A stretch of DNA of 64,000 bases from Gammaproteobacteria bacterium (GTDB lineage: Bacteria > Pseudomonadota > Gammaproteobacteria > SZUA-229): the NCBI GenBank assembly GCA_029882355.1, contig JAOUKV010000018.1, forward strand, positions 1 through 64,000. The letters run 5' to 3'. This document shows positions 14,090 to 30,946 of the stretch, in pieces (position 1 is the stretch's first letter; every line of letters starts with the position of its first letter). A program made the position numbers and the translations under genes. Below the pieces are notes generated by a model. It searched no databases. It worked only from the letters and a program-made list of their open reading frames with translations, and was not told the origin of the DNA.

Positions 14090-14827
14090 ATGGTCTATAA
14101 CGAACAAGACATATTGACGTTTGATCAGATAAGAAGTGAATTGCTCACCTTATCTAAAGAGCGTAAGACGGGTGATTTCTGCCTTTTCACCGAGGAGAAG
14201 CATGCGGCAGTCATCAGCTTCAATAAAGGTGAAATTGTTGGTTTACGTTACAGAATATCGAGGGGCAATGATGCTTTAAGGCTTATCAGGAAGATAAATA
14301 GTGCCAAAATCAGATTTCAACCAAATGATGAGTCCGTAAACCGAGCTACCGCAAAAGATATTCTATCGACTGCTGAGATTCTCAAAATATTGGGAGTAGA
14401 GCAGGATGGTTGTACATTTCAGGGCATGGGCAAGAAAATACTGGTTGTGGAAGACAGCGCAACGCAACGCAAAATTATCTGCAAGATGTTAGTGCAGAGT
14501 GGCTACCGCATTTTGGAAGCAAAAGATGGTTACGAAGCTTTATCCATTGCAGAGCTCGAAGAACCGGATCTAATACTGCTCGATATTATTATGCCGGGTA
14601 TTGATGGTTATAAAGTGATGGCAATGATGAAAGAAATTCCGGGTATGGAAAAAGTGCCCATCATCATGCTTACATCTAGAGACAAATTGATCGATAAAAT
14701 GCGCGGCAAAGTTTCAGGCACTAATGAATACCTGACAAAACCATTTAAAAGTAAAGAGCTGATTGGAAAAATAGAAAAATACACGAGTGATGACAGCTCG
14801 TTTCAAAAATCAAAGAGTGGATTATAA
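14090..14827 (+). CDS. DUF4388-like domain fused to a response-regulator receiver
   Basis: Protein of 245 residues. Residues 1-105 resemble the DUF4388/PatA-type N-terminal domain (RKTGDFCLF, then ISFNKGEIVGLRY and NDALRLIRKI), seen in gliding and pilus regulators. Residues 115-235 form a receiver close to PilG/PilH: acidic pair in VVEDSATQRK, phospho-Asp in LLDIIMPGIDGY, Thr in IIMLTSRD and Lys in EYLTKPF, all intact. It should be phosphorylated by the CheA encoded downstream and is a likely output protein of the locus. Shine-Dalgarno AAGGTAAGAG precedes the ATG. Confidence 0.85.
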   Translation: MVYNEQDILTFDQIRSELLTLSKERKTGDFCLFTEEKHAAVISFNKGEIVGLRYRISRGNDALRLIRKINSAKIRFQPNDESVNRATAKDILSTAEILKILGVEQDGCTFQGMGKKILVVEDSATQRKIICKMLVQSGYRILEAKDGYEALSIAELEEPDLILLDIIMPGIDGYKVMAMMKEIPGMEKVPIIMLTSRDKLIDKMRGKVSGTNEYLTKPFKSKELIGKIEKYTSDDSSFQKSKSGL

Positions 14828-14915: not shown

Positions 14916-15962
14916 ATGAGCGATAAAAAGAAAATTCTAATTGTTGATGATTCAAAGCTAATTCGTAAGGGTTTGGCTGGAATATTTGAGGCGTCAGACT
15001 CATTCGAGGTTATCGGTGAAGCGGCTGATGGTAAAGAAGCATTGGCAGCGATTAAGAAATTACAGCCGGATGTGGTAACACTTGATGTTGTTATGCCGGG
15101 TATGGACGGACTGACTACGCTGAAGCATATTATGATTGAGTGTCCCAGGCCAACAGTGATGTTGAGTAGCTTGACACAGGATGGAACCGAAACAACCTTT
15201 GATGCGCTTCGTTATGGTGCTGTTGATTTTATAAGCAAACCATCAAGGCTTGAAGATCAGAGTATGGATGATCTGGCAGAAGATATACTCAAAAAACTGG
15301 ATATTGCAGAGGGCATCGATGTTGGTGTTACTTCCTATATTCGAACACGCGCAGGAAATTCGAGCACAAATGAGCCTTTGGAAGGTAAGTGTAAAAGATT
15401 GGTCGCAATGGGTGCGGCTGAAGGTGGTTACCGGGCTCTAATGAAAATTATTCCCAATTTAGTGCCGGGTGATGCGGCCTATTTGGTGGTTCTGTATGCA
15501 GAAGAGAGTCATGTTGATGCATTTGCCTCTTATCTTGATGAGCACAGCAAGGTTGCAGTGAAGCGCGGACAAAATGAAGAAGTTTTACAGGCTGGTAGTT
15601 GTTATATCAGTGCTGGTTCAGATTATATGACCGTGCATGAGAAGGGAGATGATTTGGTCTTGCACGTCAGTCCAGCACCTTTTGCTTCACGCAAAGGATC
15701 TATTGATAGATTGCTATTTTCAGTTGCAGAAATTATGGCTGAAAATTCCGTTGGTGTTGTGCTTTCTGGAGTGGGTATAGATGGTTCTGAAGGAATGGAA
15801 GAAGTTGAGCGTGTGCAAGGCGTGACCATTGTTCAAGAACCAAAAAGCTGTCTGGCTCAGGAAATGTCAAAGTCAGCGCTTACATTGTGCTCACCAAATT
15901 ATATTGTTTCGGATGTTGATATTCCAACGACAATTAATGAAGTGATGGATGTTAGTTTTTAA
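14916..15962 (+). CDS. CheB-like receiver-methylesterase protein with dead catalytic site (1)
   Basis: Protein of 348 residues with CheB architecture. The receiver domain (1-125) is intact: VDDSKLIRKG, LDVVMPGMDG with the phospho-Asp, MLSS and FISKPS. The C-terminal domain (about 160-345) follows the CheB methylesterase fold, but the GASTGG serine motif reads GAAEGG, so the nucleophile is Ala168. The catalytic His of the QHM motif aligns with Tyr194 (LYAEESH). The third triad residue, Asp289 in GVGIDGSEG, is kept. Known CheB enzymes need Ser, His and Asp, so esterase and deamidase activity are very unlikely. A phosphorylation-controlled binding or scaffold role is inferred. It is not truncated or frameshifted. 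Confidence 0.88.
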   Translation: MSDKKKILIVDDSKLIRKGLAGIFEASDSFEVIGEAADGKEALAAIKKLQPDVVTLDVVMPGMDGLTTLKHIMIECPRPTVMLSSLTQDGTETTFDALRYGAVDFISKPSRLEDQSMDDLAEDILKKLDIAEGIDVGVTSYIRTRAGNSSTNEPLEGKCKRLVAMGAAEGGYRALMKIIPNLVPGDAAYLVVLYAEESHVDAFASYLDEHSKVAVKRGQNEEVLQAGSCYISAGSDYMTVHEKGDDLVLHVSPAPFASRKGSIDRLLFSVAEIMAENSVGVVLSGVGIDGSEGMEEVERVQGVTIVQEPKSCLAQEMSKSALTLCSPNYIVSDVDIPTTINEVMDVSF

Positions 15963-16028
15963 GTGATTTTATTTATGAGCATGAAATGTGGCTTTTAAAT
16001 TAAATGATAATAAATTGGTGGTGTTACA

Positions 16029-16044
16029 TCTCTTATAAAAGAGA
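16029..16044 (+). other. Small hairpin between the CheB-like and MCP genes
   Basis: TCTCTT-ATAA-AAGAGA, a 6-bp perfect stem in the 155-base gap before the MCP gene. The gap is AT-rich and may hold an internal promoter, but no strong -35/-10 pair is visible. Confidence 0.3.
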
Positions 16045-16126
16045 GCATCATAGATTTGGATATAAGTGTTATACAGTTTTTAATTAATGATAATTTCTTA
16101 CCTGATTGGGAAGGGGGATGACTAAA

Positions 16127-18586
16127 GTGGCTACTAATGTAAAAGGCAATTTTTTTGCCGATATGAAATTACCGGTGAAAATCGGTTTGGGTTTCGGAAC
16201 GATGGTTTTGCTACTTGTAGCAGCTATTGCGATCACAATTTATGAGGTTGATCAGATACAGGATCTGACTGATCAGGTGGTTGAAACTCGTGTACCAACG
16301 GCGCAGGCCAGTTCGGGTATGCTTATCGGCGTTCAGCAGTCGCTCGCGGCACTTCGTGGTTGGATGCTTCTGGATAATGCTAAATTTAAGGAAAATCGAG
16401 CCGCAGCCTGGAATGACTGGATTGATCCATCATTGAAGGAGATGGCTGAATTATCCAAAGAGTGGGACGATCAGGAGGATATTAAAAGTCTCGAAACCGC
16501 AAGAGCAAGTATAGAAAAATTCAGACAATATCAAAACGAAATTGAGGCAATTGCTAATACCCCGGATGAGCAGCCAGCGGTTAAAATTCTGCTAGAAGAA
16601 GCTGCGCCACGTGCGGCAATTCTCGTTGCCAACATTACCAAAATGATTGACCTTGAGGCGAGACAGGGTGCTGATGCCACGCGTAAATCGATTCTCTATA
16701 TGATGGCTGACGTTCGTGGTACTACCGGTCTGGGTCTGGCGGCGATTCGTGCGTATTTGCTTTCAGGTGATAAAAAGTTTGTTGCCGAATTTGACAAGTT
16801 GTGGGCAAAAAACACCAAACGATTTAAAGACCTTTCAGCTAATTACTCGAATCTGAGTTCAGCGCAGAAAGAGGCCTTTAATGAATTCAAGAAAACACGT
16901 GCAGAATTCGCACCGTTACCACCAAAGATGTTTGAAATCAGGGCGAGTAAAGAGTGGAACGTAGCCAACTACTGGCTGGGTACTAAAGCGGCGCCAGAGG
17001 CTGCAAAAATTGTTGCCGTCTTTGATGAAATAGCGAAGCATGAAGCAAAAGTAATGCTCGAAGATGGCCAAAAAGTAAGAGCTCTGGTGACTCAGTTGGA
17101 TAATCTGGAAATCAGTTTATTGGTTATCGGTATTGTTATTTCATTGGTATTGATTGTGATCTTTACGCGTGTTGTTGCAGGCCCAATTCTTGCAGTGTCG
17201 GCCGCGATTAGAGAGATTTCAGCTAACAAAGATTTGACTATTTCTGTACCAGTTGCGGGTAAAGATGAAATTGGTGAAATGTCATTGGCCTTTAATCAGA
17301 TGATTCAAGATATTCGAGAGGCATTCACCCTGGTGGTAAATATCGCGAATGATGTATCGGTAAACTCGGTAGACATGAATAAACGAGCCTCTGCTAATAA
17401 AGAGCGTTCACAAGGCGAGCTGAAACGTGCGCAGATGTCTGAGAAGGTAATCACCGAGATGGGTGGTACAGCGGCTGAAGTATCAACTGCCTCTGCTGAG
17501 CAGCAGGTGTCTGCAAAAGAAGCCGGTAGAACTATGGCGCAAATGCAGGCGCAAATGAATGAAGTGGCGGCTTCTGCGGATGAGCAGAGTAAAGAGGTTG
17601 TCACAACCATGCAACGTATTTCTGAGATGGGTGAAACCGGTGCGAAGGTGGTAGCGACCTCTCAGGAACAGGGCAAGATGGTTGGTAGGGTAACAGCCTC
17701 TGTGGATGAAATGACAGCGGCGGTTGCGGATATGCATAAGGCGGTAAGCAAAGCAACGGACTTTGGCGAGGCCTCACTCAGCGCGGCAAAAGAAGGTAGT
17801 TTATCGGTAGAAGCGACAGTGGAAGGTATGAAGGCGATTTCTGAATCATCCGAACAGATTTCTGAAATCATCGGCGTAATTACCGAAATTGCGGAACAAA
17901 CCAACTTGCTGGCTTTGAATGCGGCTATTGAGGCTGCTCGAGCTGGTACACATGGTAAGGGTTTCGCGGTGGTTGCGGATGAGGTTGGTAAGCTTGCGCA
18001 ACGTTCATCAGAAGCGGCAAAAGAAATTACTCAGTTGATTAAAGATTCGGCGCAACGAGTAGAAGAAGGAAGTCGATTGACAGAGCAGTCGCAGGCATCG
18101 TTGGCCAAGATTGATGAAGGTGGTAACGCTAATATGGAAGCGATCCAGCAGATTGGTCAAACCGCTGGAACACTGACCGAAAGTAGTCGCGTTGTTCAAA
18201 GTATGATGTCTGAACTGAATACTCTAGCTCAACAGATTGGTGATATGGCGGGTGAGCAGGGTGAACGTCGTAAAGGTGCTGAGGATGCATTGACTAAACT
18301 GCAAAGAATGTCCAACGAAATTAACACTTTGGTAAATCAGGCGGACAAAGGTGGTAACGTGGTTGGCGAGCAGATGATGGGTATTGTAAAACGTACCAAC
18401 GTCATGACTGAAATGACAGAGACACAGAAAGCTCGTTCTCAGGCAATCATGAAAATTGCGCAAGAATCTGCGGGCTCAGCGATGCAAACTGCTGAGGGTG
18501 CTGCAGCGGTTGTGAAAATTACTGAAGATCTTCAGGATAAAGCGGAACAACTTACTAAAGAAGCGCAACAGTTCAAACTCACTTAA
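16127..18586 (+). CDS. Methyl-accepting chemotaxis protein with long helical sensor domain
   Basis: Transmembrane receptor of about 819 residues. In order: TM1 at about 20-40, an all-helical periplasmic sensor of about 290 residues resembling the HBM class, TM2 near 333-352, HAMP to about 405, and a long coiled signalling domain. The kinase-control tip [18 protein letters not shown] near 610 is well conserved, but the usual Glu after AG is Thr (AGTHGKGF). A methylation-site-like [10 protein letters not shown] is near 455, while no CheR lies in the locus and the C-terminus (QQFKLT) lacks a CheR-binding pentapeptide. The GTG at 16127 is chosen because AAGGGGG lies nine bases before it. That Shine-Dalgarno directly abuts the ATG at 16118 and poorly supports the TTG at 16106. 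Confidence 0.93.
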
Positions 18587-18600
18587 TCGAATATTAATGT

Positions 18601-18621
18601 CCGGTACACGTAATGTGCCGG
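18601..18621 (+). other. Hairpin after the MCP gene
   Basis: CCGG pairs with CCGG and CAC with GTG around a small bulge and the loop GTAAT, just after the stop codon and not followed by a T-run. It may protect the MCP message end or partly reduce read-through. Confidence 0.35.
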
Positions 18622-18666
18622 ATGTTGATTGATTTTGAATTGTCTGGTTAATTTGGGGGATATGAC

Positions 18667-19185
18667 ATGGTTGATGTATTTACATCAGAAGAACAAGAAG
18701 ATCTTGAAAACGAAGGCATCATGCAGCTGGTCGGTTTTGAGGTGGGTAAAGAAATATTTGGTGTAGATATTTTGATGGTTCGTGAAATCATTAGATCTGC
18801 ACCTATAACACCGGTACCCAATTCACCGGAGTTTGTCGAAGGCGTGATTAATCTACGCGGTGATATCATTCCGGTCATTGATTTACGCAAAAGACTTAAT
18901 CTCTTTACCGAAGAGATGCAGAAAAAAAACTGGATACTTATCCTTGATATTGAAGGCAGTGTTACAGGTTTTGTTGTAGATATGGTTGATGAAGTGTTAA
19001 AAATTGATGAGAAGACTATCGAGCCAGCGCCAGAGATTGTACTTGCTGGTCTTGAAAGTCAATACATACGTGGTGTGGTCGAAGTGGCCGGTAAGCGTTT
19101 AATGATTCTGCTTAATTTTGACAGTATTTTACTGGCAAATGAAATTAAACAGTTAAAAGAAAGCAAGACGGCAAAAGCATCATAA
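18667..19185 (+). CDS. cheW: CheW-type coupling protein
   Basis: Adaptor that joins receptor tips to CheA, 172 residues, soluble. The SH3-like beta fold is recognisable from LVGFEVGKEIFGVDILMVREI near residue 20, then VEGVINLRGDIIPVIDLRKR and the closing RLMILLNFDSIL. The residue layout is ordinary, so it is probably functional. A clear GGGGGA Shine-Dalgarno precedes the ATG. Its place between MCP and CheY-like genes shows that it serves this array. Confidence 0.96.
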   Translation: MVDVFTSEEQEDLENEGIMQLVGFEVGKEIFGVDILMVREIIRSAPITPVPNSPEFVEGVINLRGDIIPVIDLRKRLNLFTEEMQKKNWILILDIEGSVTGFVVDMVDEVLKIDEKTIEPAPEIVLAGLESQYIRGVVEVAGKRLMILLNFDSILLANEIKQLKESKTAKAS

Positions 19186-19204
19186 TTACCATAGAGCATG
19201 GTAA
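19186..19204 (+). other. Hairpin immediately after cheW
   Basis: TTACCAT-AGAGC-ATGGTAA, a perfect 7-bp stem starting at the base after the cheW stop and followed by AAAAATT. Possible processing or attenuation element between cheW and the CheY-like gene. Confidence 0.4.
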
Positions 19205-19233
19205 AAAATTAAAGTGGAAAGGTGATCTGAGTT

Positions 19234-19593
19234 ATGCATAAACAGGTATTGATTGTTGATGATTCATCAATGATGCGAAAACTGATAACACGAACTCTGA
19301 CTTCAATAGAGTGTGATATTGTCGGCGAAGCCAGCAATGGTGTAGAGGCATTGGAGTTGTATAAGGAGTTAAAGCCTGACCTTGTTACCATGGATATAAC
19401 TATGCGTGGTATGGATGGTTTTACTGCGGCTCAGGGAATTTTGGAGTTTGATGATAAGGCAAAGATATTATTTTTGTCTAATCTTGATGATGATAAATAT
19501 CGAGAAATGGTCGTTGAAGTTGGTGGTGTTGGTATGGCCAAAAAACATCATTCCGATGAAATTGCAATGCTAATTAAAGCAATAGACGAATGA
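19234..19593 (+). CDS. CheY-like single-domain response regulator with altered switch residues
   Basis: Receiver domain only, 119 residues. The acidic pocket (VDDSSMMRK) and phospho-Asp (TMDITMRGMDG) are present, and Ser occupies the Thr/Ser switch position (LFLSNLDDD). Near the end, the usual aromatic-x-x-Lys-Pro stretch reads GVGMAKKHH, so the conserved Lys is kept but Pro is Lys and the aromatic switch residue appears to be Gly. It should still accept phosphate from CheA. Its output surface probably differs from flagellar CheY; it could be a phosphate sink or bind a non-flagellar target. Confidence 0.93.
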   Translation: MHKQVLIVDDSSMMRKLITRTLTSIECDIVGEASNGVEALELYKELKPDLVTMDITMRGMDGFTAAQGILEFDDKAKILFLSNLDDDKYREMVVEVGGVGMAKKHHSDEIAMLIKAIDE

Positions 19594-19674
19594 AAAGAAT
19601 GTTGTCTGTCATAATTGCATGTAAGGCGATGGGCGAATGTTTCGTAGCGGGTATGAACAAGGTAGGAATGAACG

Positions 19675-22600
19675 ATGAGTGACGTAGATATAAGTTTGCT
19701 TCCTGATTATTTGGTAGAGGCAGCCGAGCATCTTGAAGAGATGGAGTCACTGCTTCTTCAGTTGGCAGATGAACCCGAGAACGTCGAAGTATTGGATGAA
19801 ATATTTCGTCCAATACATAGCATAAAAGGCGCTGCACAGTTTATAGGTTTAGTGCACTCTTCACGCTTGGCGCATCGCTTAGAAGATTTGCTTGATTTAT
19901 TACGTAATGGCGAACGCCCATCTAGTCCAGCTGTTGTTGAGTTGTTAATTGCTGCTCGTGATTTAATTGTTACCCTGGCTGATGAGCTTGAAAATAATCA
20001 GGCCGAGATAAGCTCAGTCGATGACATGGTTGATCAGATCACGGCAGAAATTGAAGGTGAAGCAGTAACTGATAGTTCCAATGAATATGAAGAAATACCT
20101 GTTCAATCAGATTTACCTGTTAGTGCCGGTGGGTATGATGAAGAAAATGACCAGGAGTTATTTGGTATATTTTTAGAAAACCTTCGTGAGAAAATTGACG
20201 TAGTTCGTATTCAGCTAGCGGAACTTGAAGGTTCATCAGAAAAACCTGCGTTGCTTGAACGTTGTGCTGAAACTATTCAAGGTCTTCATTCAGCCGCTAA
20301 TTACATGGGTTATGAAGAACTCACCAACATATATAGTAACTGCCTGGAAGATATTGCCGCAGTACAGGAAGCATTAGCTACTGGTGAGGAAGTACCTTAT
20401 GACTTTATGGATGGTTATCTAAGAGAATTAACTGAGCTTTTCCCTCAGCTGGGGCAGGTAGATTCTGCTGCAATAAACGCAGGTAGCAGCCAGTCTGCAG
20501 AGATTGAAAGTGAAACCCAGGAAGAAGATAGTGATCTAGATGTCACTATGCTACCAGATTATTTGGTAGAGGCTGCGGATCATCTTGAAGAGATGGAAAC
20601 GTTGCTACTTAAATTGGCTGATGAGCCAGAGAATATTGAAGTGCTGGATGAAATATTTCGTCCAATACATAGTATAAAAGGTGCGGCACAGTTCATTGGT
20701 CTTAATCGATCTTCACGGCTGGCACACCGACTAGAAGATTTACTTGATTTACTGCGTAAAGGTGAGCGACCCTCTAGCCCGGCAGTAGTCGAGCTACTTA
20801 TTGCGGCACGTGATTTAATAGTTACACTCGCAGATGAATTAGAAAATTCCCAGAAAGAAATGTCATCAGTCGATGATATGGTTGCTCAAATAACAGCCGA
20901 GATTGAAGGTGGTGTTACTGCTGCTAGCGCTGCTGCGCCCAAAGATATAACGGTTGAAACTGATGTATCTAATAGTGCTGGTTACAATGAAGAAAATGAT
21001 CAGGAATTGTTTTCTATATTTATTGAGAACCTGCGTGAGAAAATTGATTTAGTTCGCATTCAGGTAGCAGAGCTTGAAAATTCTCCTGATAAAATAGCGT
21101 TACTTGAACGCTGCGCTGAGACTATTCAATCGCTTTATTCAGCGGCAAATTATATGGGCTACGAAGAGCTTACCCGTATATATAGTAACTGTCTTGAAGA
21201 TATTAGCGTTGTTCAAGATGCCCTGGCCAAAAATGAAGAAATACCATATGACTTTATGGATGGTTACCTGTTAGAAATAGCAGGGCTTTTCCCTCAGTTA
21301 GCACAAACCTTATCTGGAACTGAAACCGTTAAGGCTAGTGAAGAAAAAACACCAGAAGAAGCGCTTGCTGAAAAGCTAAGTAATGCGCTTGATAATGCTG
21401 CATCCGATTCAGAAGAAGTCGAGTATGAGTTGTTACATGGTGTATTTGAGGAAATGATTTCTGATAGGACAGAGGAGCCAGTTGAGGATGAGATCGCTAA
21501 GATATCAACTAGTAAGCAAAAACCGAGTACTAAAGCAGAAGTTGAATCAACAGTAAATAAACCTGATGATGCTAAAGTTAAACCTGCTCAGAAAAAATCA
21601 AAAATCACTAAAAAAGCACCGCCTTCAAAAACTGATGAAGAAGATAATCTGCTTAAAAGTCCAAATGATAGACGTGCAGCTGATCGCAGAAATAGCGAGA
21701 CTTCTGTTATTAAGAAAAGCGTCCGTGTTGAAGCAGAAAAAATTGATTCGCTTATCAACCAGGTGGGCGAGCTTGTGGTAGACAGGGCGTACTTCTTTCA
21801 GTTGTTTGATGATATGCGCGGTTTACAGCAGCATTTAAAAGATGATATCGGTTTAGATCAGAAAGAAATGAAGCAGATAAGAGCTTTTACTTATCGAATG
21901 AGTGAGGCAATTGCATCATTGAGTCGTACTTCAAATGAGCTTCAGGAAGGTGTGATGAAGGTGCGTATGTTGCCCATCTCGCAGCTGTTTAATCGATATC
22001 CAAGATTAGTCCATGATTTGACTCGCAACAATAACAAAAAAGTTAATTTGAAGGTTGAGGGTGAAGACACTGAGCTAGACAAGATGGTGGTGGAGAAATT
22101 GTCTGATCCACTTATTCATGTAATTAGAAATGCGGTAGATCATGGTATTGAAGGTGGTAGTGATCGCGCTGATTCTGGTAAAGCTGAAACCGCAACGCTT
22201 TTCTTAAAGGCTTATCACGAAAGTAATCAGGTTGTTGTAGAGGTTACCGATGATGGTCGTGGTATTGACCCTGCCACGATCAAAGCCAAGGCCGTAGAAA
22301 AAGGTATCGTTTCTAAACATGAAGCTAACCGAATGACGTCTCAGGAAGTTGTTCGATTAATCACTGCGCCCGGTTTTTCTACAGCAGAAAAGATAACAGA
22401 TACCTCTGGCCGTGGTGTTGGTATGGATGTGGTTAGAAAAAATATCGAAAAACTTAATGGTACTCTAGATATTGATTCTGTCCCTGGTAAAGGTACAACT
22501 ATACGCTTGAAGATCCCTTTGACCCTGGCCATCATACCTGCTCATCTGGTTCGTGTTAGCGGAAATATGTATACCATCCCATTAGCCAATATTGAAGAAA

Positions 22601-23007
22601 CGCTAAGAATAGATCCAAAAGATTCAACCATTATTGAAGGCACTGAAGTTATCTATTTAAGAGGGAAAACACTGCCTATTATTCATCTTTCAACTTTATT
22701 TGCCACGCGCAAAATTACTTCAGTGAAAGAAAACTTCTTTGTCGTTGTTGTTAATACCGGTACTCAGAAATTAGGTCTGGTTGTTGATGAATTATTAGGG
22801 CAGGAAGAGGTGGTAATTAAACCACTGGTGGATTATCTTCGAGATAAGAGTGGTTTTTCTGGTGCGACGATTATTGGTGACGGCAGTATCTCACTTATTC
22901 TTGATATTTATGAGATTGCACAGATGACATCAAGCCAGCAAATTAAGCGCCAGCACGCACTGGTTAATGCCAGGAAGGCAGCTAGTGCAGAACGGGTCAA
23001 TAATTAA
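19675..23007 (+). CDS. cheA: CheA-type histidine kinase with duplicated Hpt region
   Basis: Cytoplasmic chemosensory kinase of 1110 residues, much longer than E. coli CheA (654). Order: Hpt1 with phospho-His48 (PIHSIKGAAQFIG), an Hpt-like domain with Gln202 at the His position, Hpt2 with His332, a second Hpt-like domain with Gln485, a charged linker (about 545-680), the dimerisation helices from about 683, and the ATPase domain. The ATPase domain carries the N-box HVIRNAVDHGIE at 815, DDGRGID near 859 and GRGVGMD near 912. A CheW-like domain runs from 955 to the end. Residues 3-260 and 287-545 are repeats of each other. There is no C-terminal receiver. All kinase motifs are intact. It should phosphorylate the four receiver proteins of the locus. 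Confidence 0.96.
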   Translation: MSDVDISLLPDYLVEAAEHLEEMESLLLQLADEPENVEVLDEIFRPIHSIKGAAQFIGLVHSSRLAHRLEDLLDLLRNGERPSSPAVVELLIAARDLIVTLADELENNQAEISSVDDMVDQITAEIEGEAVTDSSNEYEEIPVQSDLPVSAGGYDEENDQELFGIFLENLREKIDVVRIQLAELEGSSEKPALLERCAETIQGLHSAANYMGYEELTNIYSNCLEDIAAVQEALATGEEVPYDFMDGYLRELTELFPQLGQVDSAAINAGSSQSAEIESETQEEDSDLDVTMLPDYLVEAADHLEEMETLLLKLADEPENIEVLDEIFRPIHSIKGAAQFIGLNRSSRLAHRLEDLLDLLRKGERPSSPAVVELLIAARDLIVTLADELENSQKEMSSVDDMVAQITAEIEGGVTAASAAAPKDITVETDVSNSAGYNEENDQELFSIFIENLREKIDLVRIQVAELENSPDKIALLERCAETIQSLYSAANYMGYEELTRIYSNCLEDISVVQDALAKNEEIPYDFMDGYLLEIAGLFPQLAQTLSGTETVKASEEKTPEEALAEKLSNALDNAASDSEEVEYELLHGVFEEMISDRTEEPVEDEIAKISTSKQKPSTKAEVESTVNKPDDAKVKPAQKKSKITKKAPPSKTDEEDNLLKSPNDRRAADRRNSETSVIKKSVRVEAEKIDSLINQVGELVVDRAYFFQLFDDMRGLQQHLKDDIGLDQKEMKQIRAFTYRMSEAIASLSRTSNELQEGVMKVRMLPISQLFNRYPRLVHDLTRNNNKKVNLKVEGEDTELDKMVVEKLSDPLIHVIRNAVDHGIEGGSDRADSGKAETATLFLKAYHESNQVVVEVTDDGRGIDPATIKAKAVEKGIVSKHEANRMTSQEVVRLITAPGFSTAEKITDTSGRGVGMDVVRKNIEKLNGTLDIDSVPGKGTTIRLKIPLTLAIIPAHLVRVSGNMYTIPLANIEETLRIDPKDSTIIEGTEVIYLRGKTLPIIHLSTLFATRKITSVKENFFVVVVNTGTQKLGLVVDELLGQEEVVIKPLVDYLRDKSGFSGATIIGDGSISLILDIYEIAQMTSSQQIKRQHALVNARKAASAERVNN
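19681..21306 (+). repeat. Internal duplication in cheA (two copies of about 775 bases)
   Basis: Copy 1 runs from about 19681 to 20455 and copy 2 from about 20533 to 21306. Each encodes one true Hpt and one Hpt-like domain. The proteins agree over long stretches (for example LLIAARDLIVTLADELEN in both), while codons differ often, so the duplication is old and under selection. Confidence 0.85.
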
Positions 23008-23083
23008 CCATGTTGGCCTGTGTCCAGAAATTAACTTATGACAGTGGTAATAAATCATCAGTTTTAGCTAATGAGGAATAATT

Positions 23084-24127
23084 GTGGGAGATAAGATAAA
23101 AGTTCTGATTGTTGATGATGCCACTTTTATGGTTAAGGCCATACGTGAAATATTAGAATCAGATGCTGAGATAGAAGTTGTTGGAAGTGCCAAGAATGGT
23201 CTTGAAGCGCTTAAGCTGATAAAAGAACTTAGACCGGATGTGATTACCTTAGACGTTGATATGCCTGTCATGGATGGACTTAAGACGGTTCGTCATATCA
23301 TGATCGAATCACCCGTTCCTGTAGTGATGTTGAGCTCACTGTCTGAGCATGGTGATATTACTTTTGAAGCAATACGTTTGGGTGTGGTTGATTTTTTACC
23401 CAAACCATCGGGTGCCATATCGCAAGATATTCATGATGTTAGGCAACAGATAATTGATCGAGTAAAAATTGCTGCCTCGGTGACTATGAAAAATATTCAT
23501 CGAGTAAAATTAAATGGTTCGAGTGAACAAAGCGAGCTTACTGAGCGTTATGGTTACCAGGAAATGGACTATATTGTCACTATTGGTACAACCTTAGGTG
23601 GTCCCAATACGGTTATTAACTTAATGACTATGCTGCCATCAGTGCTGCCAGTTACTATAGTTGTAATTCAAGAAATCGCACCAAAAATATTGCCTTCATT
23701 TGCCAAGCAATTTGCAGAGCAAACGTCCTGGCGTGTAGAAGCAGGTGAGGCTGGTAAGGAACTAGAGCAGGGTGTTTGTTATATTTGCTCTAACGAAACA
23801 CCGCTACATGTTGAACGAGATGCTCAAAACAAAATTACCTTGCTAACCCAGGCTGGTGATGAGCAGCCTTTGAATGCTCTTTTTACATCTGCATCTGACA
23901 TCTTTGGTGCTAATACAATAGGTGTTTTATTGACCGGTATTGGTAATGATGGTACAGATGGTTTTGCAGCAATAAGAAGCAATGCTGGTGTAACTATCGC
24001 TCAGAGTACGGATACTTGTGTTTACCCTAATTTGACACAATGTGCGATTGAGCATGGAAATGTCGATTATATTGTTGATGCAGATGAGCTGGCAAAAAAA
24101 ATAATGTCAGTGGTCGAAGTTGATTAA
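23084..24127 (+). CDS. CheB-like receiver-methylesterase protein with dead catalytic site (2)
   Basis: Second CheB-like protein, 347 residues. The receiver is intact (VDDATFMVKA, LDVDMPVMDG, MLSS, FLPKPSG). In the esterase-like domain the GASTGG motif reads GTTLGG, putting Thr170 in place of the nucleophilic Ser. The QHM histidine aligns with Glu197 (IQEIAPK). Asp289 in GIGNDGTDG is kept. Thr cannot be excluded as a nucleophile, but loss of the His makes normal esterase activity unlikely. It is clearly diverged from the first copy, so this is not a recent duplicate. GTG start with GAGGAA eight bases upstream. It follows cheA by 76 bases. Confidence 0.88.
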   Translation: MGDKIKVLIVDDATFMVKAIREILESDAEIEVVGSAKNGLEALKLIKELRPDVITLDVDMPVMDGLKTVRHIMIESPVPVVMLSSLSEHGDITFEAIRLGVVDFLPKPSGAISQDIHDVRQQIIDRVKIAASVTMKNIHRVKLNGSSEQSELTERYGYQEMDYIVTIGTTLGGPNTVINLMTMLPSVLPVTIVVIQEIAPKILPSFAKQFAEQTSWRVEAGEAGKELEQGVCYICSNETPLHVERDAQNKITLLTQAGDEQPLNALFTSASDIFGANTIGVLLTGIGNDGTDGFAAIRSNAGVTIAQSTDTCVYPNLTQCAIEHGNVDYIVDADELAKKIMSVVEVD

Positions 24128-24192
24128 TGGTTGTCATAGAGCTAGACCTGATCACTGTGGCCTATGATTCAAATATGATTGAGATATAATTG

Positions 24193-25134
24193 ATGTTTAT
24201 CAGTTGTGACAAATGTAATACAAAATACAAAGTCGATGAAAGTGTCTTCAAAAAACCTAGCTTACGAGTAAAGTGCTCTAAGTGTCAGCATGTTTTTACT
24301 GCTTACAAAACACCGCCACCGCTCGATGATACTCCATTTGTACTAGAGGATTCTGGTGCAGTTATAAAAACACAGGCGCCAGCACCTGAATGTAAAATTA
24401 TCTGCGTATGTAATCAGAAAGGCGGTGTTGCTAAGACCTCTACCTGTTTAAACTTGGCGAGCGCTTTGTCTGCCAAAGGTAAACGAGTGCTGTTAATAGA
24501 TTTTGATGTGCAGGCTAACCTTTCTTTATTATTACGTTGTAAAAATAAAAAGTCATTTTTTGAAGTCATGGACACTGATGATGGTGATTTAACCAAAGCT
24601 ATTGTCAAAACTAAACATGGCATATGGCTGTTACCCTCTAACAGTAGAATGGCATTAGCTTCTAAAAAATACCTCAATCAGGAAAATTTTGAATATTTAC
24701 TAAGGGAAAAGTTGGCAAGAATAAAAAAGGTCTTTGATTACATCATTATTGATACACCTCCCTCTGGCGACTTTTATACTCTTAATGCGTTGTTAGCTTC
24801 TGATCTAGCTATTATTCCGACGCAGTGTGATTATCTGTCTATGAATGGTGTTGCGCATATAGTTAATATGATCAATGTAATTAAAAACAAAACAAATCAT
24901 AAACTTGATTACAGAGGGCTGGCAACACTATATACTCCAACAAATACTGTGGAAAATGTGATTTACAAGAAGTTAAAAACACAGCTTGCTGGGAAAATGT
25001 TTGATACCGTGATTAACAGGGACAGTAGTCTTCAGGAGTCACACATTGCGAGATTACCCGTGATCGAATATGACGAGAATAGTCAGGCGGGCAAGCAGTA
25101 TCTGGAGTTGTCAGACGAGTTACTAGGGATTTAA
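24193..25134 (+). CDS. ParA/MinD-type ATPase with N-terminal MJ0042 zinc ribbon
   Basis: Protein of 313 residues. Residues 1-37 form a zinc ribbon of the MJ0042 type (CDKCNTKYKV....KCSKCQHVF). From about 70 a ParA ATPase follows: deviant Walker A NQKGGVAKTST, switch I IDFDVQANLS, and Walker B IIIDTPPSGD. ParA homologues such as ParC of Vibrio and PpfA of Rhodobacter place chemosensory arrays in the cell. The location right after the chemosensory genes suggests the same job here, but a link to the transporter that follows by six bases is also possible. No ParB partner is encoded nearby. Confidence 0.9.
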   Translation: MFISCDKCNTKYKVDESVFKKPSLRVKCSKCQHVFTAYKTPPPLDDTPFVLEDSGAVIKTQAPAPECKIICVCNQKGGVAKTSTCLNLASALSAKGKRVLLIDFDVQANLSLLLRCKNKKSFFEVMDTDDGDLTKAIVKTKHGIWLLPSNSRMALASKKYLNQENFEYLLREKLARIKKVFDYIIIDTPPSGDFYTLNALLASDLAIIPTQCDYLSMNGVAHIVNMINVIKNKTNHKLDYRGLATLYTPTNTVENVIYKKLKTQLAGKMFDTVINRDSSLQESHIARLPVIEYDENSQAGKQYLELSDELLGI

Positions 25135-25140
25135 TTAAAT

Positions 25141-25926
25141 ATGCGTTTACATGAAAACACATCGCCACTAGAAAATAATACATGGCTTCTAGGTGTCATT
25201 GCATTTATTTCAATGTGTATATTATGGTGGGGTTTGGTTGAGTTTTACGATATCAACGAAAAAGTGTTTCCCGGCCCTGTTGCAGTGTTTGAAAGCTTTT
25301 GGCTACTACTTTTAGATGGTAGTTTACTGAAGCATACAGTGGCAAGCCTGTACCGAGTCACAGTAGGTTTTTATTTAGCCGCAGCACTTGGAATTCCGCT
25401 TGGTATATTTATTGGTCGTGTTACGCTGGCACGAAATTTACTCAACCCCATTATTCAATTTTTAAGACCAATTTCACCCCTGGCATGGATACCATTGGCT
25501 ATGTTGTGGTTCGGTATTGGTGATAATCCCGCTATATTTCTGATATTTCTTGCCTGTTTTTTTCCACTGGTAGTTTCAACTACTATAGCGGTTGTCTCCA
25601 TTAATAAAGTCTATTTTCAGGTAGCCTCAAATTTTAATTTTAATCATACCGAACACTTGTTTAAAATTATAATCCCAGCGATTATTCCTGATTTGGTAAC
25701 GGCGTTAAGATTAACCGTTTCGATTGCCTGGTTAGTTGTTGTCGCGGCAGAAATGATTGCCGTGCAGTCAGGTCTAGGTTTTTTAATTCTCGATTCACGT
25801 AATGCCTTGCGTATGGATTATGTGATGGTAGGCATGATTGTAATTGGCATGATTGGATTGTTACTCGATTTTGTTGTGAAACAATTGGGTAATGGTAAGT
25901 CCTCTGTCTGGAAGGAAGTAACATAG
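25141..25926 (+). CDS. NitT/TauT-type ABC transporter permease
   Basis: Inner-membrane permease of 261 residues with about six membrane segments. It belongs to the nitrate/sulfonate/taurine/bicarbonate family (SsuC/TauC/NrtB-like). The EAA-like loop is near residues 175-200 (NFNHTEHLFKIIIPAIIPDL), and the typical N-terminal KVFPGPVAVFESF is present. It starts six bases after the ParA stop behind AGGGA, so the two are translationally linked. The substrate cannot be read from the sequence. Confidence 0.95.
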   Translation: MRLHENTSPLENNTWLLGVIAFISMCILWWGLVEFYDINEKVFPGPVAVFESFWLLLLDGSLLKHTVASLYRVTVGFYLAAALGIPLGIFIGRVTLARNLLNPIIQFLRPISPLAWIPLAMLWFGIGDNPAIFLIFLACFFPLVVSTTIAVVSINKVYFQVASNFNFNHTEHLFKIIIPAIIPDLVTALRLTVSIAWLVVVAAEMIAVQSGLGFLILDSRNALRMDYVMVGMIVIGMIGLLLDFVVKQLGNGKSSVWKEVT

Positions 25927-25941
25927 CGGATGATATATTAA

Positions 25942-26736
25942 ATGGCTTACATTGAATTAATTAATCTAAGAAAAGAGTATATCGAAAGAAGGACTCATCG
26001 ACGCAGTAAAGCAGATAATGAGCATCAGGGCGATAAACTGATTGCACTAGATGGTATCGATCTTGAGTTTCAAGAAGGTGAATTAGTCTGTATTTTAGGA
26101 CCTTCTGGTTGTGGTAAATCGACCATGTTACGTTTGATTGCTGGTTTTGAAAAACCTACAGCGGGTAAAGTATTGATTCAGGGATCTGAAATCAGAAATC
26201 CATGCCCTGAAAGTGTTTTTGTCTTTCAGCAAGATGGATTATTACCGTGGATGACTGTATGGGAAAATATGGAGTTGGGCTTGAATCATATGGACAATGA
26301 GGATGAAAAGAATGACAGAATTAATGAATATATTGAGTTGGTAGAGTTGGTTGGATTTGAGAATAATTACCCCTATCAATTATCAGGAGGCATGAAACGT
26401 AGGGCGGAATTGGCACGTGCTTTGGTGGTAAACCCTGAAATGTTAATGATGGATGAGCCATTTACCGGTCTGGACTTTCTTACTCATATGAAAATGCGTG
26501 AGGAAGTCGTCAATATGCATGAATTTATTGGTAAAACCATGATTATGATCACTCATTTTATTGATGATGCTTTGACCATGGCTGATCGTGTGATTGTTCT
26601 GAGTGAACGACCTACAAAAGTTAAAATGATACGCGAGCTAAATGTTCAGCGTCCTCGAAATATAGAAAAAGACCCCGTACTGCGTGAATTGCGTGATGAA
26701 ATATATTTAATGCTGGGTGTCAGTTATGTCGTTTAA
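25942..26736 (+). CDS. NitT/TauT-type ABC transporter ATPase
   Basis: Cytoplasmic ATP-binding subunit, 264 residues. Walker A GPSGCGKST near 54, Q-loop FQQDGLLPW, signature LSGGMKRRAELARAL (the usual Gln of LSGGMxQR is Arg), Walker B MLMMDEPFTGLD and the switch His in MITHFIDDA are present. A basic, charged insert of about 15 residues after the first strand (RRTHRRSKADNE) is unusual for the family. It overlaps the start of the solute-binding protein gene. Confidence 0.96.
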   Translation: MAYIELINLRKEYIERRTHRRSKADNEHQGDKLIALDGIDLEFQEGELVCILGPSGCGKSTMLRLIAGFEKPTAGKVLIQGSEIRNPCPESVFVFQQDGLLPWMTVWENMELGLNHMDNEDEKNDRINEYIELVELVGFENNYPYQLSGGMKRRAELARALVVNPEMLMMDEPFTGLDFLTHMKMREEVVNMHEFIGKTMIMITHFIDDALTMADRVIVLSERPTKVKMIRELNVQRPRNIEKDPVLRELRDEIYLMLGVSYVV

Positions 26737-27784
26737 GGGAATATTCAGTATAAAGTCTTTGTGGCAGCATCTTAAATATAACTCAACAGTTCATGTCGGT
26801 GTAATTATAATGCTCTGGCTTGTTGTTATCGTCGCTGCACATAACGAACTTAATGTAGAAAAACAACATCGTAAACAAATTACGATGGGCTATATGCCTG
26901 TGGTTACTAACTTAGCTTCCCCTTTACTTGATTATGTTAGTCGTGAGGGTGATGGTCTTCGCTTTAAAGCACTTAAATTTTCCTCTTTTGCAGAGATGGC
27001 TGAGTCTCTCCGTAATGGTCAGATTGATGCAGCTTTCATTATTGCCCCGTTGGCTATTGAGTTAAGGCAGCAGGGTGAAGATGTCAAAGTAGTCTACATT
27101 GGTAACCGTCATGAAAGTACGCTGGTGGCCAGGAAAGATCTTAATGTTAAAAGTCTGCATGACCTGATCGGAAAGACGGTCGCTGTACCAATGCGATACT
27201 CTGGGCACAATCTAAGTATTTTGCAGCTAATTAAAGAAAATGGACTTGAAGGCCAAATCAATGTCGTGGAAATGAATCCACCTGATATGGCTTCGGCACT
27301 GTCTACTGGCTCACTTGACGCATATTATGTCGGTGAACCTTTTGCTGCCAGCACGCTGCAAAGCGGTGAATCTGAACTGGTGTTCTATGTTGAAGATGTC
27401 TGGAACGATTTTATATGTAATTTGGTCCTGGTTAGGCAGGAATGGATTGATAAAGATCCGGAAGGAGTTAAAGCACTGGTTGATGGCGCTGTTCGATCAG
27501 GTCTTTGGGCACGAAAGAATTCGGCACAAGCGGCAGAAATTGCTTCAATTTACTGGAATCAACCTGTTGATCTGATCGAGTATGCTTTGAATACACCTAA
27601 GGATCGAATTTTGTTTGATAAATATGTGCCAAAAGAAGATGAGATGCAGTACATGGCGGATATGATGAAAAAGTATGGTCTTATTGACAATAATGACATT
27701 ACAGGTTTGATCGACGATAAGTTTGCACTTGAGGTGGATCTTGAGAATATAAAAGGTCCTGAGTCAATTATGATTGTTAAGTAA
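26726..27784 (+). CDS. Solute-binding protein of NitT/TauT ABC transporter, probably membrane-tethered
   Basis: Periplasmic binding protein of the NMT1/THI5-SsuA-NrtA class, 352 residues. The binding core starts at MGYMPVVTNLASPLLDYV and contains FAEMAESLRNGQIDAAFI, IGKTVAVPMRYSGHN and LDAYYVGEPFAAS. The N-terminal hydrophobic segment (VHVGVIIMLWLVVIVAAHN) lacks a clear cleavage site, so the protein may stay anchored. ATG at 26726 gives an 11-base overlap with the ATPase gene; the GTG at 26717 is less likely. As the last gene before a strong terminator, it closes the cistron. Relatives bind nitrate, sulfonates, bicarbonate, pyrimidine precursors or phosphite-like ligands. Confidence 0.93.
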   Translation: MSFKGIFSIKSLWQHLKYNSTVHVGVIIMLWLVVIVAAHNELNVEKQHRKQITMGYMPVVTNLASPLLDYVSREGDGLRFKALKFSSFAEMAESLRNGQIDAAFIIAPLAIELRQQGEDVKVVYIGNRHESTLVARKDLNVKSLHDLIGKTVAVPMRYSGHNLSILQLIKENGLEGQINVVEMNPPDMASALSTGSLDAYYVGEPFAASTLQSGESELVFYVEDVWNDFICNLVLVRQEWIDKDPEGVKALVDGAVRSGLWARKNSAQAAEIASIYWNQPVDLIEYALNTPKDRILFDKYVPKEDEMQYMADMMKKYGLIDNNDITGLIDDKFALEVDLENIKGPESIMIVK

Positions 27785-27876: not shown

Positions 27877-28287
27877 CTATCTAAATCCACCAGCATTGGC
27901 TTCATCTGAATACTTTGTATCCATAGATATAATATGCTCTTTTAACCAGTCAATACCCAATCGCGATACTTTTGGTACAGCAAAAATAGCCATGCCACCA
28001 TCAGCTTCATTTTTATATTCCGTAATTTTGTCTACAAACGCAACATGGGCTCTTTTCTGACTATCAATACCAGAATAGTGGACTTGTTCAAGCATTCGTT
28101 CTTCTTCGCCAAAATGATATTTTGTGTAGTCAACTAGCTCGGTAATGAATTTAGCAAGTACATCTTCATCTGTACCCGATTTCATTGCGTCGTGCATTTG
28201 ATTCATGATATCAAACAGTTTTTTGTGATGGTTGTCCATAGCGAGAACGCTTACGCTATATTCATCACTCCAGTTAAATAAGGCCAT
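27877..28287 (-). CDS. Bacteriohemerythrin
   Basis: Small soluble di-iron O2-binding protein, 136 residues. The iron ligands are visible: His in DNHHKKLFD, HFGEEE, HYSGIDSQKRAHVAFV and HIISMD. The ATG at 28287 is preferred over the TTG five codons earlier because GGAG lies nine bases upstream and the protein then starts at the conserved MALFNWSDEYSV. Single-domain hemerythrins store or carry O2 or report on it. It is convergent with the transporter genes, so it is not part of their transcript. Confidence 0.95.
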   Translation of the reverse strand: MALFNWSDEYSVSVLAMDNHHKKLFDIMNQMHDAMKSGTDEDVLAKFITELVDYTKYHFGEEERMLEQVHYSGIDSQKRAHVAFVDKITEYKNEADGGMAIFAVPKVSRLGIDWLKEHIISMDTKYSDEANAGGFR

Positions 28288-28456
28288 TGTGTATAACTCC
28301 AAAAAAAGTGTAGTTTATATTAGTCGGATTTTGTCAGCATTTGATAGAGGCATAAATCGACTTATGCTTAGGTACAAGTTTAGATTAAATATATGAAAAA
28401 GACTCATTCTCAAAAAAAATAATAACAGAATCAGCTAAAAGAATCATTTTCTATCC

Positions 28457-28564: not shown

Positions 28565-29545
28565 ATGAAAATTGATATTGAAGTACGTCAAGTAGTACTT
28601 CCTAAATTGGAAAAATACAACTTTACTAGGTTGGTGGCACAAGTATCAGAAGCTGATGTGGATCATACCCTTTCAGTATTGCGACGCCAGCAGGCTAAAT
28701 GGCGTTCTGTTGATCAACCAGCGAAAGCAGGTGATAGCGTGATTATCAATTGCTACGCCAAAGTAGGCGAGCGTGTCTTTGATGGTAAGGCAATGCGAGT
28801 TGAGCTAACAGAAGATGTAGTGACCGGTTTTGAGAAAAGTCTTATTGGTGTTGCCGTAGGTGAGAAATTGCCTATAGAAATCAATTTTTCAGTGGATCAT
28901 TATCAAACTGATGTTGCGGGTAAAGCCGTTGTTTTTGATGTTGAGGTTTTAGAAATTGAAGCCTTGGTCTTACCCGAACTTGATACTGCTTTCATCAGAA
29001 GTAGTGGCATAGAGAGTGGTAAAGTTGCGGATATGCGCTCTGTGATTCGACGAAATATGGATACGCATCTGCAGAAAACCATTCGTCTAAAAAATACACT
29101 AAATGTATTTTCTTATATTCTTAACGATAACCATATAGATGCCCCACAGTCATTGCTTGAAGCAGAGTTAAAGCGACTAACCTGTGACCCCTGTGAGGAG
29201 GTTGAGGGTGTTGAAAGCTTTAAACACGACATTGACCCCGCCATGTTCACCGATCTTGCTTATACACGCGTTACCAGAAGTTTGCTTGTGGATGAGCTAG
29301 CTAAGGTTATGGATGTGGTCCTGGATGAACAGGAGGTAAGGGCACGAGTTGACGATTTGGTTTCAGAATACCCGCAAAAAGAAAAAATTATTGACTGGTT
29401 TTATGGTGATGAAGTCCGTTTAGCGGGCATAAAATCTGATGTTCTCGGCGAGCAAGTTGCTGATCTGATTTTAAAAGAAGCGAAACCTGAAATAATTGAA
29501 ACCAGTTACGCTGCGATGATGGATTTTGGTGGTAACGAGAAATAG
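28565..29545 (+). CDS. Trigger-factor-like PPIase/chaperone lacking the ribosome-binding domain
   Basis: Protein of 326 residues. Residues 1-25 match the linker before the FKBP domain, 30-135 the FKBP-type peptidyl-prolyl isomerase domain (DSVIINCYAKVGERVFDG, VVTGFEKSLIGVAVGE, VFDVEVLEIEAL), and 140-326 the C-terminal chaperone arms (LPELDTAFIRSSGIESG, VIRRNMDTHLQKTIRLKN). Full trigger factor is about 430-450 residues. The missing part is the N-terminal ribosome-docking domain with the GFRxGKxP loop. The gene has its own Shine-Dalgarno (AGGGTAA) and start, so it is not a simple 5' deletion. The canonical tig, normally beside clpP, is not in this window. A ribosome-independent chaperone role is inferred. 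Confidence 0.87.
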   Translation: MKIDIEVRQVVLPKLEKYNFTRLVAQVSEADVDHTLSVLRRQQAKWRSVDQPAKAGDSVIINCYAKVGERVFDGKAMRVELTEDVVTGFEKSLIGVAVGEKLPIEINFSVDHYQTDVAGKAVVFDVEVLEIEALVLPELDTAFIRSSGIESGKVADMRSVIRRNMDTHLQKTIRLKNTLNVFSYILNDNHIDAPQSLLEAELKRLTCDPCEEVEGVESFKHDIDPAMFTDLAYTRVTRSLLVDELAKVMDVVLDEQEVRARVDDLVSEYPQKEKIIDWFYGDEVRLAGIKSDVLGEQVADLILKEAKPEIIETSYAAMMDFGGNEK

Positions 29546-29585: not shown

Positions 29586-30350
29586 TTAAATAGATTGGAA
29601 AATTAGATGGATGCCAATTAACGTCATAAGAAAAATAAAAGTTTCTTTGAGTATTTTGTCATCAATATATCGCGCTACACGGGGGCCGATTTGACCTCCG
29701 ATTAGTGTTCCCAGTCCACCCCATAATAAGTAATTTACTTCAACAACCTCTTCCATTAAAGACCAGTGTAAACCAGCAGCGACGATGGCTAGTAAAAACA
29801 TCATTGGAATGACGGTTGCAACACAACGTCTCATACTGAGTTTTAACTTGCTGCGCATAGCGGGTATTAACCACTCACCAATACCTAGCGATAAAAACCC
29901 CATAATGAATCCAAAAAATCCTGGTATAGGTAGTAGATGGTTAACTTTTTCCTGGTTAAATTTATAATTATCTCGTTCTTCATCTGTTTGATCCTGACTG
30001 GCAACAAATAACAGAGCGAGTGTCATGGCCATAATGCCTAATGCCATTTGCACGGGTTGCTGGGGTAAATTTACGGTAGTATAACTGCCAATAATAACGC
30101 CGGGTAAAGCAGCTGCAAAAAAGATCAGAGCTAATTTTTTATCGACAAGGTTTGTTCGTAAAAAGGCAAAAGTTCCACTGCCCATACCAATTACCTGTAT
30201 CAATAACGATGTTGCTACCGCTGCCTGTGGTGATAGTCCATAGGCAAGGATCAACAGAGGAGTCCATAAAATACCTCCACCAATACCAATCGTCATTGCC
30301 GCAGTGGAGAAGAGCAGTCCTGCTAAAACTAGTCCTAGTTCTTCAATCAT
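29586..30350 (-). CDS. TauE/SafE-family (TSUP) membrane transporter
   Basis: Inner-membrane protein of 254 residues with about eight membrane segments. The family motif appears twice, as expected: IGIGGGILWTPLLIL with PQAAVATSLL in the first half and MGFLSLGIGEWLIPAM in the second. Family members export sulfite or organosulfonates or move other small carboxylates; the substrate here is unknown. Its ATG overlaps the stop of the HAMP gene (ATGA), so translation is coupled to that gene and the PilZ gene upstream. Confidence 0.93.
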   Translation of the reverse strand: MIEELGLVLAGLLFSTAAMTIGIGGGILWTPLLILAYGLSPQAAVATSLLIQVIGMGSGTFAFLRTNLVDKKLALIFFAAALPGVIIGSYTTVNLPQQPVQMALGIMAMTLALLFVASQDQTDEERDNYKFNQEKVNHLLPIPGFFGFIMGFLSLGIGEWLIPAMRSKLKLSMRRCVATVIPMMFLLAIVAAGLHWSLMEEVVEVNYLLWGGLGTLIGGQIGPRVARYIDDKILKETFIFLMTLIGIHLIFQSI

Positions 30351-30946
30351 TCTTTTATATCCGTTTCTAGAAGATTGAATGAATCAATAAACATGCGTAA
30401 TGAGTCGAGCTCATGTCTGATCAGGGATATCTGTTTGGTACTATCTGAAGCGTTATCGTCCAGAGTTTTTGATAGATCATCGATTCTAGATTCTATGGCA
30501 TTTATCATGCCGGAGGTTGAAGAAGCAATCTCCTGGAAATTACTGGTTAATTCATTAATGACTACACCCAATTGGCCAACTTCATCGTGTGTTTCTATTT
30601 TTATTACCTGGCTTAGATCGCCATCATTGATCAGCTCCGCTGTATCTAAAGTTCTTTGTAAAGGTCGTGTGATGTTTTTAACGAACATCATCATGACAAT
30701 GGCCATAACTATCGTCAGCACACCGAACATGACAACAATCTTGTTTCGTAAGCTAGAAAGAGCAGGGGATTCATATAATGTGGAGTTGATACTGTCTGTA
30801 ATAGCAGTTGTGTTTACGCAAATGTCCTGTTGAAGTCCCGGCCTACCCATCTCAAAATAGAACTCGACACCTATCATCATTGCTGCGATTGCTATTAGTA
30901 AAAAATAGTTAAGCAGGATGGTTTCCAGTTTTTGAGTTTGTTTCAT
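30347..30946 (-). CDS. Two-TM protein with HAMP domain and no output domain
   Basis: Protein of 199 residues. TM1 is at about 12-30, a very short periplasmic loop of about 35 residues follows, TM2 lies near 68-90, then HAMP (ITRPLQRTLDTAELINDGDL....DEVGQLG) to about 142 and a C-terminal coiled-coil to the end. No kinase, cyclase or MCP tip follows, so signal output must be through protein contacts. It lies between a PilZ gene and a TSUP transporter gene in one operon. I do not recognise a named family. Confidence 0.8.
   Translation of the reverse strand: MKQTQKLETILLNYFLLIAIAAMMIGVEFYFEMGRPGLQQDICVNTTAITDSINSTLYESPALSSLRNKIVVMFGVLTIVMAIVMMMFVKNITRPLQRTLDTAELINDGDLSQVIKIETHDEVGQLGVVINELTSNFQEIASSTSGMINAIESRIDDLSKTLDDNASDSTKQISLIRHELDSLRMFIDSFNLLETDIKE

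Follow-up and report, generated by a model that had tools for sequence, protein, structure and literature searches.

Introduction

CheR/CheB methylation is the textbook adaptation mechanism of chemosensory arrays, and methylation-free systems are poorly understood. In ordinary CheB (1a2o) the unphosphorylated receiver covers the groove of the esterase domain, which is uncovered upon phosphorylation. Here we describe a chemosensory locus in a DNA stretch of 64,000 nucleotides (the window; positions 1 to 64,000 of the forward strand of contig JAOUKV010000018.1, assembly GCA_029882355.1) from a gammaproteobacterium of the SZUA-229 lineage, which encodes two CheB homologues, CheB1 and CheB2, without the catalytic serine and histidine.

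The CheBs of Salmonella (1a2o), Pectobacterium (6ymz) and Thermotoga (3sft) share with CheB1 and CheB2 the receiver, the esterase fold in a close match and the triad aspartate, at 25-31% identity. In contrast to them, the nucleophilic serine and the catalytic histidine are replaced in CheB1 and CheB2, the scores of both fall under the NCBI CheB cut-off, and the cluster is devoid of CheR and has a receptor without the usual methylation motifs. CheV, for which sink and receptor-binding roles have been discussed (PMC12691637), is alike in the proposed logic only, namely a phosphorylatable receiver switching an array-binding domain; its effector is a CheW domain, whereas that of CheB1 and CheB2 is a CheB domain without homology to it, and the domain search revealed no CheW domain in either protein. 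In the cytoplasmic cluster of Rhodobacter sphaeroides a ParA-family ATPase (PpfA), which is needed for partitioning of that cluster, is likewise encoded with che genes (PMC2829493). The window differs from it by a receptor with predicted 4HB sensor and HAMP (membrane type), by a zinc ribbon on its ParA and by the lack of ordinary CheR/CheB in the cluster. Finally, multi-Hpt CheA systems (type IV pili and alternative-function classes, e.g. ChpA) resemble the window in having a CheA with more than one Hpt domain and no P2 domain, but the CheA of the window has no receiver and the genome possesses a separate Pil-Chp-like system on contig 21.

A receptor, CheW, CheA and a receiver, by which a chemosensory system is recognised, are co-encoded in the window; the locus is real and conserved, and is a variant of such a system, not a new kind. 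It is apparently undescribed, as no description of such proteins was found in the papers searched, whose coverage is thin for subscription journals.

Results and Discussion

Catalytic residues, architecture and fold of CheB1 and CheB2

The two genes and the codons of the replaced residues, as assigned by alignment, are located as follows.

14916-15962, + strand: CheB1, predicted pseudo-esterase (A168, Y194; D289 and receiver D57 kept)
15417-15419, + strand: Ala168 codon of CheB1, at the position of the nucleophile Ser164 of CheB
15495-15497, + strand: Tyr194 codon of CheB1, at the position of the catalytic His190 of CheB
23084-24127, + strand: CheB2, predicted pseudo-esterase (T170, E197; D289 and receiver D57 kept)
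23591-23593, + strand: Thr170 codon of CheB2, at the position of Ser164 of CheB
23672-23674, + strand: Glu197 codon of CheB2, at the position of His190 of CheB

Both open reading frames (that of CheB2 with a GTG start) encode a receiver and a CheB esterase domain, matched by Response_reg and CheB_methylest well over the Pfam cut-offs. A first-pass annotation of this DNA had claimed that both proteins lack the catalytic Ser and His and keep the Asp, and alignment to the solved CheBs (1a2o/6ymz) bears this out: A168 of CheB1 and T170 of CheB2 fall on Ser164, Y194 and E197 align with His190, and Asp286 is matched by D289 in both proteins. Instead of Ser-His-Asp, the triads therefore read A168/Y194/D289 and T170/E197/D289, and no substitute Ser or His was found at the catalytic positions in these alignments. 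The receivers, described as intact in the same annotation, indeed retain D11, D12, D57, S84 and K108 (K107 in CheB2), and the phosphorylation residues are invariant among the CheB1 orthologues and among the CheB2 orthologues. The cut-off of the NCBI CheB subfamily (293 bits) was missed by the cluster pair (253.6 and 287.9 bits), in comparison to 450.7 bits for the canonical CheB of the same genome.

The structure comparison suggested in the first-pass annotation placed the C-terminal domains of both proteins in the CheB fold. In the AlphaFold model of CheB1 the predicted local distance difference test score (pLDDT) of the esterase domain is mostly 80-95, and the top PDB matches in Foldseek were CheBs (6ymz, E 6.7e-31; 3sft domain, template modelling score (TM) 0.90, root-mean-square deviation (rmsd) 1.8 A). 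The model of CheB2 is of low quality except for the esterase domain, which matched 3sft/1chd with TM 0.87/0.85 and an rmsd of about 2 A.

A displaced catalytic histidine in CheB1 (His199 of 'ESHVDAF') was considered and rejected, this residue being five residues away and a Tyr in the orthologue of genome G101. Sequencing or assembly error was rejected as well, because the same replacements are conserved in independent genomes. The loss of the triad is firm; judged by sequence, the domains are CheB homologues failing the tests for a CheB enzyme, and from this we infer the loss of esterase activity itself.

Catalytic residues across the family and origin of the losses

In total 124 CheB-domain hits were aligned, of which 49 fall outside the pseudo-CheB clades; these control CheBs were drawn as best matches to CheB1 and hence are no random CheB sample. 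All 49 carry Ser-His-Asp, as do the 19 of 19 non-cluster CheBs fetched from carrier genomes, some of which overlap the 49; the replacements in the cluster pair thus go beyond chance. In every gammaproteobacterial copy of the locus catalytic residues of CheB1 and CheB2 are replaced, with Ala or His together with Tyr in CheB1 and Thr or Ser together with Glu in CheB2. Outside this class CheB1 shows Ser and Tyr (L068, L071, Desulfosarcina widdelii and G615), Arg and Trp (two Desulfobacterales) or the intact Ser-His-Asp (G593, G697, G423, G733 and G652). The search for homologous loci, proposed in the first-pass annotation as a check on conservation, thus gave a divided answer: close relatives of CheB1 and CheB2, in the same genus and in other families at 50-55% domain identity, are likewise without the catalytic residues, whereas some more distant CheB1 orthologues keep Ser and His.

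The CheB2 orthologues are more uniform, with Thr or Ser, Glu and Asp in 12 of 12 tree rows, and the sister group of their clade carries Ser/Asp/Asp. This pattern, a nucleophile that is only Ser or Thr, a His position that is only Glu and a retained Asp, would suit a changed enzyme, in which CheB2 (Thr/Ser-Glu-Asp) employs an acidic residue for His and acts as a hydrolase or deamidase with a different chemistry or a different substrate. Ser-Glu-Asp triads occur in other hydrolases, the sedolisins, and supply a precedent. However, at neutral pH a carboxylate serves poorly as general base where CheB has His, CheB1 with its Ala or His and Tyr is left unexplained and a candidate substrate is lacking; we regard this explanation as very unlikely.

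A careful tree resolved separate clades for CheB1 (support 97/91), CheB2 (99/95) and canonical CheB (96/98), and a quick tree with the catalytic columns masked and long branches removed recovered the same clades. CheB1 and CheB2 are 34-35% identical, which together with the separate clades supports the claim that they are strongly diverged with different replacements; for the same reasons a recent duplication within the locus was rejected. The first-pass annotation left it between independent and very early loss. Independent loss is favoured by the separate clades and by the CheB1 members with intact triad, although a joint clade of CheB1 and CheB2 was not rejected by the approximately unbiased (AU) test (p 0.12). 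Since intact triads occur within its clade, the loss in CheB1 most likely took place inside the CheB1 lineage itself and independently of CheB2. The branching order inside CheB1 disagrees between the careful and the masked tree, so that the direction of change is deduced from how improbable it is that both residues were regained.

Selection on the CheB1 domains

The ratio of nonsynonymous to synonymous substitution rates (dN/dS) was determined for one genome pair, the window against a genome of the same genus (84% protein identity), and for CheB1 only, as no near CheB2 relative was found. It amounts to about 0.09 for the esterase domain and 0.024 for the receiver of CheB1, compared to 0.073 and 0.012 for the respective domains of the canonical CheB in the same pair; these values are rough, because dS exceeds 1. 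The esterase domain of CheB1 is under purifying selection, which agrees with the earlier claim that the fold was kept, and within the protein the strongest constraint falls on the receiver.

The low ratio argues against plain decay, i.e. that the genes are left over from an earlier CheB-dependent system and are being lost. Decay could account for the varied Ser/His positions of CheB1 (SHD, SYD, AYD, HYD, RWD), as in stepwise erosion, but the complete copies, which span several families and more than one phylum, have full-length open reading frames. This possibility is largely refuted and highly improbable; the CheB1/CheB2 pair is conserved, not a case of local decay.

Receptor methylation in the cluster and in carrier genomes

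Between the two CheB genes, the domain search assigned the following signalling components.

16106-18586, + strand: methyl-accepting-type receptor with two 4HB_MCP stretches, HAMP and MCP signalling domain
18667-19185, + strand: CheW (Pfam CheW, 1.6e-37)
19234-19593, + strand: stand-alone CheY-like receiver
19675-23007, + strand: CheA kinase with two Hpt, dimerisation, ATPase and CheW domains; neither a receiver nor a P2 domain found

CheR is absent from the window cluster and from the examined copies of it. The genome of the window (G000; contigs 10, 21 and 62) holds three chemosensory systems: an ordinary one on contig 62, a Pil-Chp-like one on contig 21 with a 1917-amino-acid CheA-like open reading frame, and the window cluster. 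Its one ordinary CheB (GASTGG and QHIP) is encoded on contig 62, beside CheD and the sole CheR that the genome has.

CheR, CheB and receptors were searched in 15 carrier or related genomes. No CheR hit was obtained in three of them, G296 (93% complete), G615 and G733, whose sole CheB domains found are those of the cluster; in G615 and G733 the single receptor found is the cluster's own. Most carriers, like the window genome, have CheR and an ordinary CheB elsewhere. Receptors were inspected for the methylation motif [ASTG][ASTG]xx[EQ][EQ]xx[ASTG][ASTG], with distances counted from the tip sequence EAARAG. The three ordinary receptors of the window genome carry it at one to three fixed distances (-80, -73, +109), whereas none of the 14 cluster receptors (that of the window and 13 orthologues) has it at these places, with few matches elsewhere.

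These results bear on the possibility that esterase work is carried out in trans by the ordinary CheR/CheB pair of the genome while the cluster proteins modulate this pair or compete with it on shared receptors. The CheR and ordinary CheB elsewhere in the window genome and in most carriers would permit this; the three carrier genomes without a CheR hit and the cluster receptor without consensus sites at the usual places speak against it, and we consider it clearly unlikely. Because distant bacteria keep the same two or three broken CheBs beside receptors without the usual methylation motifs, adaptation in the cluster probably does not involve the customary methylation chemistry.

Proposed role of CheB1 and CheB2

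Since receiver and fold are kept and the catalytic residues are gone, phospho-gated binding to the receptor array would be the most likely role of the two proteins. We propose a chemosensory system that has dispensed with receptor methylation and uses CheB1 and CheB2 as phospho-gated adaptors or brakes, a reading to which we assign about an even chance. The cluster CheA would phosphorylate the receivers of both, and phosphorylation would uncover the groove of the esterase fold, as in ordinary CheB. The uncovered domain, presumably unable to hydrolyse methyl esters, would bind a partner, most likely the receptor or the receptor-CheA-CheW array, so that CheB1 and CheB2 may feed kinase activity back on the array in a logic comparable to CheV, with a putative role in adaptation. 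The suggestion in the first-pass annotation that the proteins may bind receptors as regulated clamps is plausible, and it accords with a cluster that lacks CheR and whose receptor lacks the usual methylation motifs.

The same receivers could alternatively act as phosphate sinks, draining phosphoryl groups from CheA and shortening the CheY signal, with the esterase domains as structural ballast. More than 90% of multi-Hpt CheAs carry a receiver, commonly thought to be a sink (PMC10782961). The two-Hpt CheA of the window is unlike these in having no receiver of its own, which lends weight to the sink. Furthermore, no CheZ or CheC gene was recognised in the window cluster, and the strong constraint on the CheB1 receiver is in line with such a role. 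On the other hand, a free receiver would suffice for a sink, whereas the CheB1 esterase domain is itself conserved under purifying selection and specific replacements have become established, namely Tyr in most CheB1 and Glu in CheB2. We therefore rate the sink as possible but on the unlikely side.

Several observations weigh against the phospho-gated adaptor itself. The one CheR of the window genome, on another contig, could operate in trans; most carrier genomes are draft assemblies, which makes the absences provisional; and methylation sites may depart from the consensus motif. Some Desulfobacterota CheB1s keep Ser-His-Asp though no CheR lies near their cluster, so that CheB1 may still be an enzyme there. 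Lastly, the selection values derive from one pair and CheB1 only, with dS near saturation (about 1.2).

Distribution and neighbouring genes

Around the signalling genes, the window contains the following features.

14090-14827, + strand: response regulator with N-terminal domain and C-terminal receiver (Pfam Response_reg 117-228), preceding CheB1 in gammaproteobacterial copies
24190-25134, + strand: ParA-family ATPase with N-terminal MJ0042 zinc ribbon (domain search), directly after CheB2
25141-25926, + strand: ABC permease of nitrate/sulfonate/taurine type, also in other copies
25942-26736, + strand: ABC ATPase of a nitrate/sulfonate/taurine-type transporter, also in other copies
26717-27784, + strand: substrate-binding protein, NMT1/SsuA-like, also in other copies
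27877-28302, - strand: bacteriohemerythrin, found in some copies
29586-30350, - strand: TauE/SafE-type permease, inside the locus in Desulfobacterota copies
30347-30946, - strand: small HAMP membrane protein paired with TauE, inside the locus in Desulfobacterota copies

The conserved order is receiver protein, CheB1, receptor, CheW, CheY, CheA, CheB2, zinc-ribbon ParA, ABC permease, ABC ATPase and substrate-binding protein, with hemerythrin in addition in some copies. CheB1 and CheB2 were previously placed at both ends of the cluster; they are not, because the receiver protein precedes CheB1 and ParA and the ABC transporter follow CheB2. Orthologues of the receiver protein occupy the same position in other copies (37-46% identity); an assignment of its N-terminal domain as DUF4388/PATAN was unsupported (hhalign prob 1.4). 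ParA is found at the equivalent position at 40-54% identity and adjoins CheB2 in complete copies.

Among 369 genomes sampled from the class, five carry the locus, each belonging to a different family; within the genus of the window, CheB1 was found in just one other of seven genomes searched, some incomplete. A strong match to the CheB1 profile was present in 19 of 395 sampled genomes of the phylum of Desulfosarcina widdelii, not all of them the same locus; named carriers of CheB1 include D. widdelii PP31 and several metagenome-assembled genomes.

Nor is a pair the general rule, since the Desulfobacterota copies hold three CheB-like proteins. The complete ones (L141, L143) encode an additional protein of receiver, DUF4388, receiver and CheB, and have the genes of the HAMP protein and TauE placed after ParA and before the ABC transporter, compared to a few genes downstream on the opposite strand in the window. 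This third pseudo-CheB (CheB3; L068:13402-15171, L072:15219-16676, L141:8933-10792 and L143:8731-10545) carries DUF4388 and one or two receivers, and has lost Ser and His and usually Asp too. The fusion of DUF4388 to receiver and CheB is present in the L068 and L072 proteins and absent from CheB1 and CheB2. A variant locus in G390 (L149:7141-10001) bears other pseudo-CheBs (Ala-Tyr-Asp and Ser-Asp-Asp) beside a CheR. It belongs to a different locus type (L149, L126, L127) with pseudo-CheBs of its own, whose Ala-Tyr-Asp form (GAALGGY, VQYMP) falls in a separate clade, an apparent convergence on the same replacements.

The NMT1/SsuA-type ABC transporter (25141-27784) and the TauE/SafE permease (29586-30350) accompany the chemosensory genes across phyla. 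The transported compound may be the stimulus of the cluster, and the sulfonate/nitrate type of the transporter and TauE suggest a sulfur or nitrogen oxyanion or an organosulfonate as putative input.

The window also encodes a trigger-factor-like protein (28565-29545), 30-33% identical to proteins beside the locus in L117 and L118. An 856-amino-acid protein (31633-34203) contains acidic 'ELEALYG'-like repeats, a single hydrophobic stretch and a SPOR-like-looking C-terminal part; a search with its end gave no relative in other copies of the locus. It is followed by a 901-amino-acid protein (34314-37019) with many near-identical repeats (HQVVSFNDGSGDKLWLIGG..., Kelch-like).

Implications

Taken more broadly, the locus may represent a distinct, patchily distributed chemosensory class that abandoned methylation and in which two or three phosphorylatable pseudo-CheBs feed back on the array; at least two transitions from enzyme to adaptor would have taken place in a single locus, and extant species would preserve the intermediates (Ser-His-Asp, Ser-Tyr-Asp, Ala-Tyr-Asp). 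We advance this tentatively, as somewhat short of evenly balanced. Domain-based annotation would label CheB1 and CheB2 as methylesterases. As the locus keeps the CheB fold and the phospho-switch without the catalytic residues, next to a receptor devoid of the usual methylation motifs, it makes a non-catalytic role of CheB directly testable, and the CheB1 family offers a series of intermediate forms linking enzyme to adaptor.

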